A stretch of 64,000 bases of DNA from Arbacia lixula (lineage: Eukaryota; Echinodermata; Echinoidea; Arbacioida; Arbaciidae): contig OZ022591.1 of NCBI GenBank assembly GCA_963669155.1, positions 22,409,324 to 22,473,323 of the forward strand. Direction: 5' to 3'. This document shows positions 1 to 5,226 of the stretch, one piece after another. Position numbers and translations under genes: made by a program. The notes below the pieces were generated by a model. It saw only the letters and a program-made list of their open reading frames with translations, had not been told where the DNA came from and made no database searches. Each line of letters starts with the position of its first letter. Positions within the stretch are counted from its first letter, which is position 1.

Positions 1-82
1 GGCTTCTTTCCTTGCGGTGTTCCATCTTCCATTCCCTTTTTTTTTAAATGAATAGTAATTTTGTTTACCAGGCGAGTTCTGG

Positions 83-136
83 TTAGGGTTAGGGTTAGCG
101 TTAGGGTTAGGGTTAGGGTTAGGTTTAGGTTTAGGG
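83..136 (+). repeat. Telomere-like TTAGGG tract (representative; one in every spacer)
   Basis: Nine hexamers in perfect register: TTAGGG twice, TTAGCG, TTAGGG three times, TTAGGT twice, TTAGGG. The degenerate hexamers keep the same place in nearly all units, so the tract was copied with the unit and was not added afresh by telomerase. Units differ mainly by whole hexamers: 5 (such as 43014-43043), 6 (such as 22338-22373), 8, 9 or 10. The G-rich strand is the non-template-sense strand relative to 5S, so the 5S-sense strand reads CCCTAA. Five GGG runs within a short span give G-quadruplex potential. Confidence 0.95.
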
Positions 137-227
137 CTAAGCAAGACAAAGGTATCAAATGAAAAAAAAGAGATAGCCAACATCCACAAGAAGAGCAAGA
201 TAATGGATTTCAAAAGGTAAGGAAGTG

Positions 228-330
228 GTAGGTGAAAAAAAGTGAGGAAAGGGTAAGTGAAAAAAAATGACGACAGGGTAAGTGAAAAAAAAGAATGAGG
301 GAAGAGTAAGTAAAAAAAGACGAGACATAC
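228..330. repeat. 25 bp minisatellite in the 3' flank (representative; one in every spacer)
   Basis: Imperfect copies begin at 228, 253, 278 and 306. Each opens with GTAGGTG, GTAAGTG or GTAAGTA, followed by 6 to 8 A and a short GA-rich part. Spacing is 25, 25 and 28. On the 5S-sense strand the A runs become T runs of 7 or 8, so they may act as fail-safe Pol III terminators behind the T5 at the gene end. Nine units carry one extra 25 bp copy. Confidence 0.9.
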
Positions 331-340
331 TTTCATTAGG

Positions 341-345
341 AAAAA
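341..345 (-). terminator. Pol III terminator T5 (representative)
   Basis: Five T residues on the minus strand follow base 118 of the first gene directly. A run of four or more T is the standard Pol III stop. With one or two U retained the mature RNA would be about 120 nt, the usual eukaryotic size. The same T5 lies directly below each of the other gene starts I checked. Confidence 0.95.
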
Positions 346-463
346 GCCTACAACACCTGGTATTCCCAGGCGGTCTCCCATCCAAGTACTAACCGGGCCC
401 TACGCTGCTTGACTTCGGTGATCGGACGAGAACCGGTATGTTCAGCGTGGTATGGTCGTAGGC
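346..463 (-). rRNA. 5S: 5S ribosomal RNA, consensus type (copy 1)
   Basis: Structural RNA of the large ribosomal subunit, made by RNA polymerase III. The gene reads GCCTACGACCATACC at the 5' end and GGTGTTGTAGGC at the 3' end, so the ends pair as helix I. The stretch from position 64 to 111 is close to vertebrate 5S, and positions 28 to 58 are like echinoderm 5S as I recall it. Helix II (16-20 with 58-62) and helix III (28-32 with 45-51, A49 and A50 bulged) form without mismatch. The start was set by helix I pairing and the end by the T5 run at 341-345. This sequence is the commonest in the window. The span recurs 8,141 bp to the right. Confidence 0.98.
367..414 (-). promoter_or_regulatory. 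Internal control region of the first 5S gene (representative)
   Basis: Type 1 Pol III promoter inside the gene, covering gene positions 50 to 97. The A box (403-414) reads AGTCAAGCAGCG, the intermediate element (392-397) lies at gene positions 67-72, and box C (367-384) contains TTGGATGGGAGACCGCC. These positions follow the vertebrate 5S numbering, which this gene matches without gaps. TFIIIA is the expected binding factor. Confidence 0.9.
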
Positions 464-510: not shown

Positions 511-888
511 CATGTTCGTTTTATTTTGATCTTTTGTTGCTTGGCTTCTTTCCTTGCGGTGTTCCATCTTCCATTCCCTTTTTTTTTAAATGAATAGTAA
601 TTTTGTTTACCAGGCGAGTTCTGGTAAGGGTTAGGGTTAGCGTAAGGGTTAGGGTTAGGGTTAGGTTTAGGTTTAGGGCTAAGCAAGACAAAGGTATCAA
701 ATGAAAAAAAAGAGATAGCCAACATCCACAAGAAGAGCAAGATAATGGATTTCAAAAGGTAAGGAAGTGGTAGGTGAAAAAAAGTGAGGAAAGGGTAAGT
801 GAAAAAAAATGACGACAGGGTAAGTGAAAAAAAAGAATGAGGGAAGAGTAAGTAAAAAAAGACGAGACATACTTTCAATTAGGAAAAA
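464..888. repeat. Complete intergenic spacer (representative, 425 bp)
   Basis: First full spacer. It has the conserved 5' flank at 464-510, a T-rich part, an oligo-T run near 579-587, the telomere-like tract from about 625 to 679, a unique segment to about 770, and the minisatellite to about 873. Two hexamers here read TAAGGG in place of TTAGGG. No RNA gene or credible coding region is visible. Confidence 0.95.
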
Positions 889-1006
889 GCCTACAACACC
901 TGGTATTCCCAGGCGGTCTCCCATCCAAGTACTAACCGGGCCCTACGCTGCTTGACTTCGGTCATCGGACGAGAACCGGTATGTTCAGCGTGGTATGGTC
1001 GTAGGC
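889..1006 (-). rRNA. 5S: 5S ribosomal RNA, class G44 (copy 2)
   Basis: One change, C44G (base 963), in loop C, where it should not break a stem. This is the commonest single variant, seen in 23 copies across most of the window. The spacer below has two TAAGGG hexamers. Confidence 0.97.
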
Positions 1007-1430
1007 AAACACTTAAGTAAATCACAAAATGACATTCAACTGGCACCTTTTCTCATGTTCGTTTTATTTTGATCTTTTGTTGCTTGGCTTCTTTCCTTGC
1101 GGTGTTCCATCTTCCATTCCCTTTTTTTTTAAATGAATAGTAATTTTGTTTAGCAGGCGAGTTCTGGTTAGGGTTAGGGTTAGCGTTAGGGTTAGGGTTA
1201 GGGTTAGGTTTAGGTTTAGGGCTAAGCAAGACAAAGGTATCAAATGAAAAAAAAGAGATAGCCAACATCCACAAGAAGAGCAAGATAATGGATTTCAAAA
1301 GGTAAGGAAGTGGTAGGTGAAAAAAAGTGAGGAAAGGGTAAGTGAAAAAAAATGACGACAGGGTAAGTAAAAAAAAGAATGAGGGAAGAGTAAGTAAAAA
1401 AAGACGAGACATACTTTCAATTAGGAAAAA

Positions 1431-1548
1431 GCCTTCAACACCTGGTATTCCCTGGCGGTCTCCAATCCAAGTACTAACCGGGCCCTACGCTGCTTGACTT
1501 CGGTGATCGGACGAGAACCGGTATGTTCAGCGTGGTATGGTCGTAGGC
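1431..1548 (-). rRNA. 5S: 5S ribosomal RNA, class TAT (copy 3)
   Basis: T114A breaks the A5-U114 pair of helix I; T96A and G85T lie in box C, with G85T in the core GGATGGG motif. Transcription and folding may both be weaker. Helix II is intact, unlike the other TAT copies outside this block. Confidence 0.93.
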
Positions 1549-1973
1549 AAACACTTAAGTAAATCACAAAATGACATTCAACTGGCACCTTTTCTCATGT
1601 TCGTTTTATTTTGATCTTTTGTTGCTTGGCTTCTTTCCTTGCGGTGTTCCATCTTCCATTCCCTTTTTTTTTAAATGAATAGTAATTTTGTTTACCAGGC
1701 GAGTTCTGGTTAGGGTTAGGGTTAGCGTTAGGGTTAGGGTTAGGGTTAGGTTTAGGTTTAGGGCTAAGCAAGACAAAGGTATCAAATGAAAAAAAAGAGA
1801 TAGCCAACATCCACAAGAAGAGCAAGATAATGGATTTCAAAAGGTAAGGAAGTGGTAGGTGAAAAAAAGTGAGGAAAGGGTAAGTGAAAAAAAATGACGA
1901 CAGGGTAAGTGAAAAAAAAGAATGAGGGAAGAGTAAGTAAAAAAAGACGAGACATACTTTCAATTAGGAAAAA

Positions 1974-2091
1974 GCCTACAACACCTGGTATTCCCAGGCG
2001 GTCTCCCATCCAAGTACTAACCGGGCCCTACGCTGCTTGACTTCGGTCATCGGACGAGAACCGGTATGTTCAGCGTGGTATGGTCGTAGGC
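1974..2091 (-). rRNA. 5S: 5S ribosomal RNA, class G44 (copy 4)
   Basis: C44G only. The unit to the right begins with CAACTGCCACC in place of CAACTGGCACC, a spacer marker that recurs in several left-hand units. Confidence 0.97.
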
Positions 2092-2516
2092 AAACACTTA
2101 AGTAAATCACAAAATGACATTCAACTGCCACCTTTTCTCATGTTCGTTTTATTTTGATCTTTCGTTGCTTGGCTTCTTTCCTGGCGGTGTTCCATCTTCC
2201 ATTCCCTTTTTTTTTAAATGAATAGTAATTTTGTTTACCAGGCGAGTTCTGGTAAGGGTTAGGGTTAGCGTTAGGGTTAGGGTTAGGGTTAGGTTTAGGT
2301 TTAGGGCTAAGCAAGACAAAGGTATCAAATGAAAAAAAAGAGATAGCCAACATCCACAAGAAGAGCATGATAATGGATTTCAAAAGGTAAGGAAGTGGTA
2401 GGTGAAAAAAAGTGAGGAAAGGGTAAGTGAAAAAAAATGACGACAGGGTAAGTGAAAAAAAAGAATGAGGGAAGGGTAAGTAAAAAAAGACGAGACATAC
2501 TTTCAATTAGGAAAAA

Positions 2517-2634
2517 GCCTACAACACCTGGTATTCCCAGGCGGTCTCCCATCCAAGTACTAACCGGGCCCTACGCTGCTTGACTTCGGTCATCGGACGA
2601 GAACCGGTATGTTCAGCGTGGTATGGTCGTGGGC
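2517..2634 (-). rRNA. 5S: 5S ribosomal RNA, class G44 with T4C (copy 5)
   Basis: C44G plus T4C at base 2631. T4 pairs with A115, so T4C gives a C-A mismatch in helix I. Only this copy and its block partner at 10658 have it. Confidence 0.95.
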
Positions 2635-3053
2635 AAACACTTAAGTAAATCACAAAATGACATTCAACTGCCACCTTTTCTCATGTTCGTTTTATTTTGA
2701 TCTTTTGTTGCTTGGCTTCTTTCCTGGCGGTGTTCCATCTTTCATTCCCTTTTTTTTAAAATGAATAGTAATTTTGTTTACCAGGCGAGTTCTGGTTAGG
2801 GTTAGGGTTAGCGTTAGGGTTAGGGTTAGGTTTAGGTTTAGGGCTAAGCAAGACAAAGGTATCAAATGAAAAAAAAAAGAGATAGCCAACATCCACAAGA
2901 AGAGCAAGATAATGGATTTCAAAAGGTAAGGAAGTGGTAGGTAAAAAAGGGAGGAAAGGGTAAGTGAAAAAAAATGACGACAGGGTAAGTGAAAAAAAAG
3001 AATGAGGAAAGAGTAAGTAAAAAAAGACGAGACATACTTTCAATTAGGAAAAA

Positions 3054-3171
3054 TCCTACAACACCTGGTATTCCAAGGCGGTCTCCAATCCAAGTACTAA
3101 CCGGGCCCTACGCTGCTTGACTTCGGTGATCGGACGAGAACCGGTATGTTCAGCGTGGTATGGTCGTAGGC
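3054..3171 (-). rRNA. 5S: 5S ribosomal RNA, private variant (copy 6)
   Basis: C118A removes the terminal helix I pair, G97T is at the box C edge, and G85T is within box C. The spacer to the left lost one hexamer and has AGGTAAAAAAGGGAGG in the minisatellite. Found only here and at 11195. Confidence 0.92.
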
Positions 3172-3593
3172 AAACACTTAAGTAAATCACAAAATGACAT
3201 TCAACTGGCACCTTTTCTCATGTTCGTTTTATTTTGATCTTTTGTTGCTTGGCTTCTTTCCTTGCGGTGTTCCATCTTCCATTCCCTTTTTTTTAAATGA
3301 ATAGTAATTTTGTTTACCAGGCAAATTCTGGTTAGGGTTAGGGTTAGCGTTAGAGTTAGGGTTAGGGTTAGGTTTAGGTTTAGGGCTAAGCAAGACAAAG
3401 GTATCAAATGAAAAAAAAAGAGATAGCCAACATCCACAAGAAGAGCAAGATAATGGATTTAAAAAGGTGAGGAAATATTAAGTGAAAAAGAGGTGAGAAA
3501 AGGGTAAGTGAAAAAAATTAAGGAAAGGGTAAGTGAAAATAAAATGAGGGAAGAGTAAGTAAAAAAAGACGACATACTTCATAAAAGGGAAAA

Positions 3594-3711
3594 ACCTATA
3601 ACACCCGGTATTCCCTGGCGGTCTCTTATCCAAGTACTAACCGGGCCCTACGCTGCTTGACTTCGGTGATCGGACGAGAGCCGGTATGTTCAGCGTGGTA
3701 TGATCGTAGGC
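3594..3711 (-). rRNA. 5S: 5S ribosomal RNA, most divergent copy, possible pseudogene (copy 7)
   Basis: Eight changes: C9T, T32C, G85A, G86A, T96A, A106G, G113A and C118T. Two hit the box C core, one removes the C6-G113 pair, one the terminal pair. The 3' flank is also rearranged (3460-3590: AATATTAAGTG, AAGAGGTGAG, a shortened GACGACATAC). The T5 terminator remains. Likely poorly expressed or silent; the block partner at 11735 has all the same changes. Confidence 0.85.
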
Positions 3712-4138
3712 AAACACTTAAGTAAATCACAAAATGACATTCAACTGGCACCTCTTCTCATGTTCGTTTTATTTTGATCCTTTGTTGCTTGTTTTCTTTC
3801 CTTGCGGTGTTCCATCTTCCATTCTCTTTTTTTTTTAAATGAATAGTAATTTTGTTTACCAGGCGAGTTCTGGTTAGGGTTAGGGTTAGCGTTAGGGTTA
3901 GGGTTAGGGTTAGGTTTAGGTTTAGGGCTAAGCAAGACAAAGGTATCAAATGAAAAAAAAGAGATAGCCAACATCCACAAGAAGAGCAAGATAATGGATT
4001 TCAAAAGGTAAGGAAGTGGTAGGTGAAAAAAAGTGAGGAAAGGGTAAGTGAAAAAAAAATGACGACAGGGTAAGTGAAAAAAAAGAATGAGGGAAGAGTA
4101 AATAAAAAAAGACGAGACATACTTTCAATTAGGAAAAA

Positions 4139-4256
4139 GCCTACAACACCTGGTATTCCCAGGCGGTCTCCCATCCAAGTACTAACCGGGCCCTACGCTG
4201 CTTGACTTCGGTGATCGGACGAGAACCGGTATGTTCAGCGTGGTATGGTCGTAGGC
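4139..4256 (-). rRNA. 5S: 5S ribosomal RNA, consensus type (copy 8)
   Basis: No difference from the consensus. The upstream flank reads CACTTAGTAAATC (two bases fewer AG), shared with 7402 and 12280. Confidence 0.98.
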
Positions 4257-4683
4257 AAACACTTAGTAAATCACAAAATGACATTCAACTGGCACCTTTT
4301 CTCATGTTCGTTTTATTTTGATCTTTTGTTGCTTGGCTTCTTTCCTTGCGGTGTTCCATCTTCCATTCCCTTTTTTTTTTAAATGAATAGTAATTTTGTT
4401 TACCAGGCGAGTTCTGGTTAGGGTTAGGGTTAGCGTTAGGGTTAGGGTTAGGGTTAGGTTTTGGTTTAGAGCTAAGCAAGACAAAGGTATCAAATGAAAA
4501 AAAAGAGATAGCCAACATCCACAAGAAGAGCAAGATAATGGATTTCAAAAGGTAAGGAAGTGGTAGGTGAAAAAAAGTGAAGAAAAGGGTAAGTGAAAAA
4601 AAAATGACGACAGGGTAAGTGAAAAAAAAGAATGAGGGAAGAGTAAGTAAAAAAAGACGAGACATACTTTCAATTAGGAAAAA

Positions 4684-4801
4684 GCCTACAACACCTGGTA
4701 TTCCCAGGCGGTCTCCCATCCAAGTACTAACCGGGCCCTACGCTGCTTGACTTCGGTGATCGGACGAGAACCGGTATGTTCAGCGTGGTATGGTCGTAGG
4801 C
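4684..4801 (-). rRNA. 5S: 5S ribosomal RNA, consensus type (copy 9)
   Basis: Consensus gene. The spacer to its left has a TTTTGG hexamer in the telomere tract and GTTTAGAGC at its end. Confidence 0.98.
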
Positions 4802-5226
4802 AAACACTTAAGTAAATCACAAAATGACATTCAACTGCCACCTTTTCTCATGTTCGTTTTATTTTGATCTTTTGTTGCTTGGCTTCTTTCCTTGCGGTGT
4901 TCCATCTTCCATTCCCTTTTTTTTTAAATGAATAGTAATTTTGTTTACCAGGCGAGTTCTGGTAAGGGTTAGGGTTAGCGTAAGGGTTAGGGTTAGGGTT
5001 AGGTTTAGGTTTAGGGCTAAGCAAGACAAAGGTATCAAATGAAAAAAAAGAGATAGCCAACATCCACAAGAAGAGCAAGATAATGGATTTCAAAAGGTAA
5101 GGAAGTGGTAGGTGAAAAAAAGTGAGGAAAGGGTAAGTGAAAAAAAATGACGACAGGGTAAGTGAAAAAAAAGAATGAGGGAAGAGTAAGTAAAAAAAGA
5201 CGAGACATACTTTCAATTAGGAAAAA

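Follow-up and report, generated by a model that had tools for sequence, protein, structure and literature searches.

A telomere-like tract in the spacers of a 5S rDNA array at a chromosome end in one assembly of Arbacia lixula

Ribosomal DNA is joined directly to telomeres in the NORs of Arabidopsis and in Giardia (PMC6410037, PMC9498494), and in armoured catfishes 5S rDNA and interstitial telomeric sites are found in the same places, where they are tied to breaks and fusions (PMC9693754). The literature also gives TTAGGG as the telomere motif of echinoderms (PMC3308324, PMC6410037), describes short interstitial telomeric sequences as thought to be inserted during the repair of breaks (PMC9693754, PMC6410037) and presents the Y′ elements of yeast as tandem units adjoining the telomere (PMC11042809). 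Both the joining of ribosomal arrays to telomeres and the co-location of 5S genes with telomeric sites are already known. In yeast, Y′ arrays also carry short internal telomeric tracts between their units, in the orientation of the chromosome end.

The locus considered here (the window) is a stretch of 64,000 nucleotides in the 607-Mb genome of Arbacia lixula, located at C16:22409324-22473323 on a sequence of 22,479,952 bases, and it is made up of 5S rDNA from end to end. A search with Rfam finds 118 5S genes in it, every one of them on the minus strand and with scores of 89-116 bits, arranged in units of 519-568 bp (most commonly 543). These belong to a larger array of 131 head-to-tail 5S genes with their spacers, all on one strand, which can accordingly be classed as a 5S array; eight of the genes lie to the left of the window and five to the right. 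The features needed to follow the text, in window coordinates, are:

1 to 64,000, no strand: the window, a section of the terminal 5S array on C16, with 118 of the 131 genes and 118 tracts
81 to 136, plus strand: telomere-like tract of nine TTAGNN hexamers, with TTAGCG in slot 3 and TTAGGT in slots 7 and 8
212 to 319, plus strand: A-rich subrepeat of about 25 bp, in four copies, in the spacer that holds the tract at 81 to 136
345 to 463, minus strand: 5S rRNA gene of the unit with the tract at 81 to 136, 115.8 bits (Rfam)
623 to 678, plus strand: tract belonging to the next unit, 159 bp upstream of the gene at 345 to 463, counted from its 5′ end, and 209 bp past the 3′ end of the gene at 888 to 1006

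With transcription as the direction of reading, about 209 bp separate the tract from the 3′ end of the gene before it, and 159 bp from the 5′ end of the gene after it. The first-pass annotation had reckoned with five to ten hexamers in each spacer and with some 118 tracts amounting to about 6 kb, and these figures are borne out: a flank-anchored search of the window returns 118 tracts with a summed length of 6,144 bp, consisting of nine hexamers in 97 cases, eight in 7, six in 5, five in 5 and ten in 4 (the last hexamer of some tracts being cut by the flank anchor). Lengths other than nine arise via changes of whole hexamers. The array as a whole contains 131 tracts, 106 of them with nine slots, and in all 106 slot 3 is TTAGCG and slot 5 is TTAGGG, while TTAGGT fills slot 7 in 96 and slot 8 in 93; another 11 have TTAGGA in slot 8. 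The degenerate hexamers do keep the fixed places ascribed to them as far as nine-slot tracts are concerned, but this fails for the ten shortest of the 117 tracts (out of 118) that were extracted from the window with whole units, all ten of which lack TTAGCG. A lack of hexamer register or the presence of unrelated flanks, either of which would have spoken against a common origin of the tracts, was not seen: the register is present across the tracts, and the flanks are identical around all 118 of those in the window.

The plus strand of the window contains 638 copies of TTAGGG and no CCCTAA. Chance can be rejected as the origin of the tract: one unit holds 6 TTAGGG, while its 1000 dinucleotide shuffles hold 0.44 on average, at most 3, and never two in succession. 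The motif is the genome's own terminal motif and stands away from the terminal telomere, and in this sense the tract is an interstitial telomeric sequence.

In the window 78 of 117 units are distinct, and identical units recur 6, 7, 10, 13 and 15 units apart, that is, as block duplications, which show array growth of some kind; because of this recurrence the units on C16 cannot be treated as independent. Over 130 whole units of the array (86 distinct), the tract has a pi of 0.023, vs 0.022 for the 5S gene and 0.0185 for the remaining spacer. The 5S genes are as variable as the spacers here (29 of 117 5S columns vary), and the same few variants are met in many genes as a result of block duplication. 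Differences from the consensus amount to 76 per kb in unit 1 and 64 in unit 2, the two that border unique DNA, and only 4-7 in units 125-130. Interior units 14 and 29 are likewise far from the consensus (54 per kb), so decay is not confined to the array edge. The clean distal edge is consistent with homogenisation or truncation of the array as far as the telomere.

A second 5S array is located at C13:22977646-23005488, with 38 5S genes on the plus strand (46-112 bits), about 0.58 Mb from the contig end and adjoining a gap of 2,700 N. Among the 5S matches obtained, the 41 places listed are all on C13, and the 47 scored out of 15,339 candidates are all on C16. The C13 array has mixed unit lengths (331-560 bp), includes units without a tract and is broken by two interruptions of 2.5 and 8 kb. 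After identical units were collapsed and two oversized intervals (2546 and 7972 bp) skipped, 27 distinct units could be compared, of which 21 have the tract at the same place as on C16 and 6 lack both the tract and the neighbouring spacer. Because that part of the spacer is missing too, the tract-less units look like deletions. The flanks of the 21 distinct tracts are those of C16 with one or two differences, and TTAGCG is kept in 13 of them (6 at slot 3, 7 at slot 4). Distances between the two arrays are 0.046 for 5S, 0.114 for the tract and 0.135 and 0.168 for two parts of the spacer, and a tree separates C13 (27 rows) from C16 (32 rows, with 30 of 84 core units sampled) at 100/100. Since the two arrays have the tract, its flanks and the TTAGCG hexamer in common, the capture predates their split. 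The same flanks in both arrays, the common hexamer and the separation of the arrays in the tree all support what the first-pass annotation had proposed from the window, namely one capture in an ancestral unit followed by spread with the unit, and this part of the interpretation is well supported.

The first-pass annotation had also suggested that the tract could bind telomere-repeat proteins or affect how the array replicates and recombines. A tract present in 118 of 118 window spacers invites the explanation that it is a selected element, acting as a platform for TRF-type proteins in array chromatin, telomere tethering or fork stalling. The sequence YTAGGGTTR, which is taken here to be the TRF-type core motif, has 569 sites, all on one strand and none on the other, and between the arrays the tract has diverged slightly less than the spacer parts, as given above; both observations would suit such a role, but gapped alignment of the hexamers can conceal differences, and the placement of gaps may account for the lower divergence. 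Variation within arrays points the other way, with the tract exceeding the rest of the spacer in pi on C16 and being the most variable part on C13 (0.092 vs 0.024 and 0.050), and so does the lack of the tract from 10 of 35 unit-sized C13 spacers, whose adjoining genes can still reach 111 bits. A selected role is consequently considered unlikely. No clear selection on the tract is apparent, its variation appearing similar to that of the spacer, and it is treated here as an inherited passenger that has a latent capacity for recombination. G-quadruplex formation was also considered, and under a strict rule none of the 131 tracts qualifies, vs 115 under a looser one.

To the right of the window the remaining 6.6 kb comprise five 5S genes, a broken unit and 3,572 bp of TTAGGG that run up to the contig end, the telomere (C16:22476381-22479952) starting about 3 kb past the window. 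The array's final unit breaks off within its A-rich 25-bp subrepeat and is joined to the telomere at C16:22476381, with an overlap of at most a base or two and no N, and the 131 spacer tracts and the terminal TTAGGG are all in one orientation. In the one assembly available, the array is the end of the chromosome, capped by a telomere to which it is joined straight, with no block between, as in other telomere-adjacent rDNA; this terminal position, seen in that same assembly, is the surprising part. The terminal TTAGGG has a non-telomeric interruption of 20 bp (at about 3498-3515 of the end extract L010) and also one short repeat. On the proximal side, unique DNA gives way at C16:22405111 to TTAGGG hexamers, and the first 5S gene comes after them; the position of this edge inside a tract is only suggestive, because the tract makes up 54 of the 543 bp of a unit and roughly every tenth edge placed at random would fall in it. 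The idea that a tract seeded the present telomere was rejected, the junction being situated in the A-rich subrepeat and not in the tract.

For comparison, 22 left and 21 right ends of C1-C22 (the right end of C22 being left out) were read over 1-7 kb each, the left end of C16 consisting of 3 kb of N. Terminal TTAGGG is found at eight ends: the right ends of C16, C3, C7, C8 and C9 and the left ends of C11, C13 and C15. Six of the seven telomeric ends other than that of C16 have a subtelomere block in common, with main matches of 0.8-3.0 kb (a length partly set by the extent of sequence fetched) and 96-100% identity; nothing in the final 80 kb of C16 matches the block. At these six ends (right of C3, C7, C8 and C9, left of C15 and C13) the junction is the same, CCCACAACCCTAA adjoining TTAGGG, and on C3 there is an insertion within the block. 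The left end of C11 has no common block and passes from telomere to subtelomere through variant telomeric repeats with a GACG insertion (about 3400-4040 of extract L027). No 5S was found in the seven other telomeric ends (up to 3 kb read before the telomere), nor in 20 left ends (6 kb each, partly N in five) or 20 right ends (1 kb each). A junction of pure hexamers was rejected as a sign of a young telomere, 4 of the 7 other telomeric ends being equally pure over 400 bases. Near the starts of C12, C13, C15, C16, C17 and C19 there are blocks of 1,000-5,000 N, which may be scaffold padding or withheld sequence and which on C13 and C15 precede telomeric repeats, and at the left end of C18 (L032:3589-3624) six CCCTAA hexamers with degenerate neighbours form a short interstitial telomeric site in non-telomeric DNA.

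These ends bear on a further explanation, that the tract is a hexamer microsatellite which grew by slippage and is telomere-like but not telomere-derived. Length steps of whole hexamers are what slippage yields, and the adjoining A-rich part is likewise tandem. The motif is, however, exactly that of the genome's telomeres at eight contig ends, and the array abuts a telomere in the same orientation, which makes a microsatellite origin rather doubtful. It is also conceivable that the join between array and telomere is an assembly error, given that tandem arrays are hard to assemble, that the tracts share sequence with telomeric reads and that the join, next to a terminal repeat with an interruption, is known from the assembly alone. 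Such an error is improbable when the join is situated in the A-rich spacer, outside the tract, with hardly any overlap and no N, and when the orientation is right for an end. Independent capture in the two arrays, or repeated capture within one, is very improbable with insertion site and flanks the same in both and the same hexamer in most tracts (13 of 21 on C13), even though the 8 of 21 distinct C13 tracts without TTAGCG, several of them with five to seven perfect hexamers running, could be renewed tracts and count against a single capture.

Probably, telomeric sequence was captured a single time and concerted evolution then spread it, in an array that today carries a telomere as its cap. 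The event would have placed a short interstitial telomeric sequence in one ancestral 5S spacer before the C16 and C13 arrays diverged, and unequal exchange and block amplification, as the means of concerted evolution, would then have multiplied it along with its unit. The capturing unit would most likely have been terminal or close to the end of a chromosome, a setting in which spacer and telomeric DNA could come together when breaks are repaired; the C13 array, some 0.58 Mb inside its contig, offers by its present place no argument for a terminal origin. Later, a break within a spacer on C16 may have been capped by (TTAGGG)n, most simply through healing by telomerase or copying from another telomere, and the array would occupy the place of the subtelomere block of other ends because of that capping. 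Capture near an end, healing as the origin of the present end and the use of tracts in repair are what we infer from the arrangement. The tracts would need no selected role in any of this, and would provide each unit with a standing homology with the telomere. As each unit has a tract in end orientation, a more speculative and rather unlikely extension is that the 5S array acts as a renewable, gene-bearing subtelomere, in which copying through the tracts, as in yeast Y′ arrays, could give a broken or eroded end a new cap or more length, coupling 5S dosage to end maintenance.

The locus provides a base-level view of a 5S array that serves as a subtelomere and has a telomere motif in each unit. 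With two edges, a tract history recorded in two arrays and a common block that is missing, models of break-and-heal and of recombination become testable, and the C16 array is a good place to study the exchange of sequence between gene arrays and chromosome ends. In the mainly open-access literature searched, no 5S unit with an internal telomere tract was found, which does not prove absence in print.

To our knowledge, the large rDNA units of Arabidopsis NORs and Giardia have no telomere motif. These systems are alike to C16 in that a tandem ribosomal array forms the subtelomere and directly abuts the telomere, no other block intervening (PMC6410037, PMC9498494), and unlike it in that large ribosomal genes are concerned there, whereas on C16 it is 5S, with the telomere motif in every spacer. 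The armoured catfishes similarly have 5S and telomeric DNA in one place, but the evidence there is in situ hybridisation, whereas the C16 tract is resolved within each unit and the array is terminal (PMC9693754). With the short interstitial telomeric sequences of the sources cited at the outset the tract shares its few TTAGGG hexamers, some of them degenerate, in non-telomeric DNA; unlike these, it has been multiplied more than a hundredfold because it is inside a tandem gene unit. As regards spread to many ends in the manner of Y′, the 1-6 kb read of each other end show no 5S. The units of the C16 array are 5S genes, unlike Y′ elements, but as in Y′ arrays telomeric tracts, here 131 of them, stand between tandem subtelomeric units in a single orientation, which is that of the telomere.
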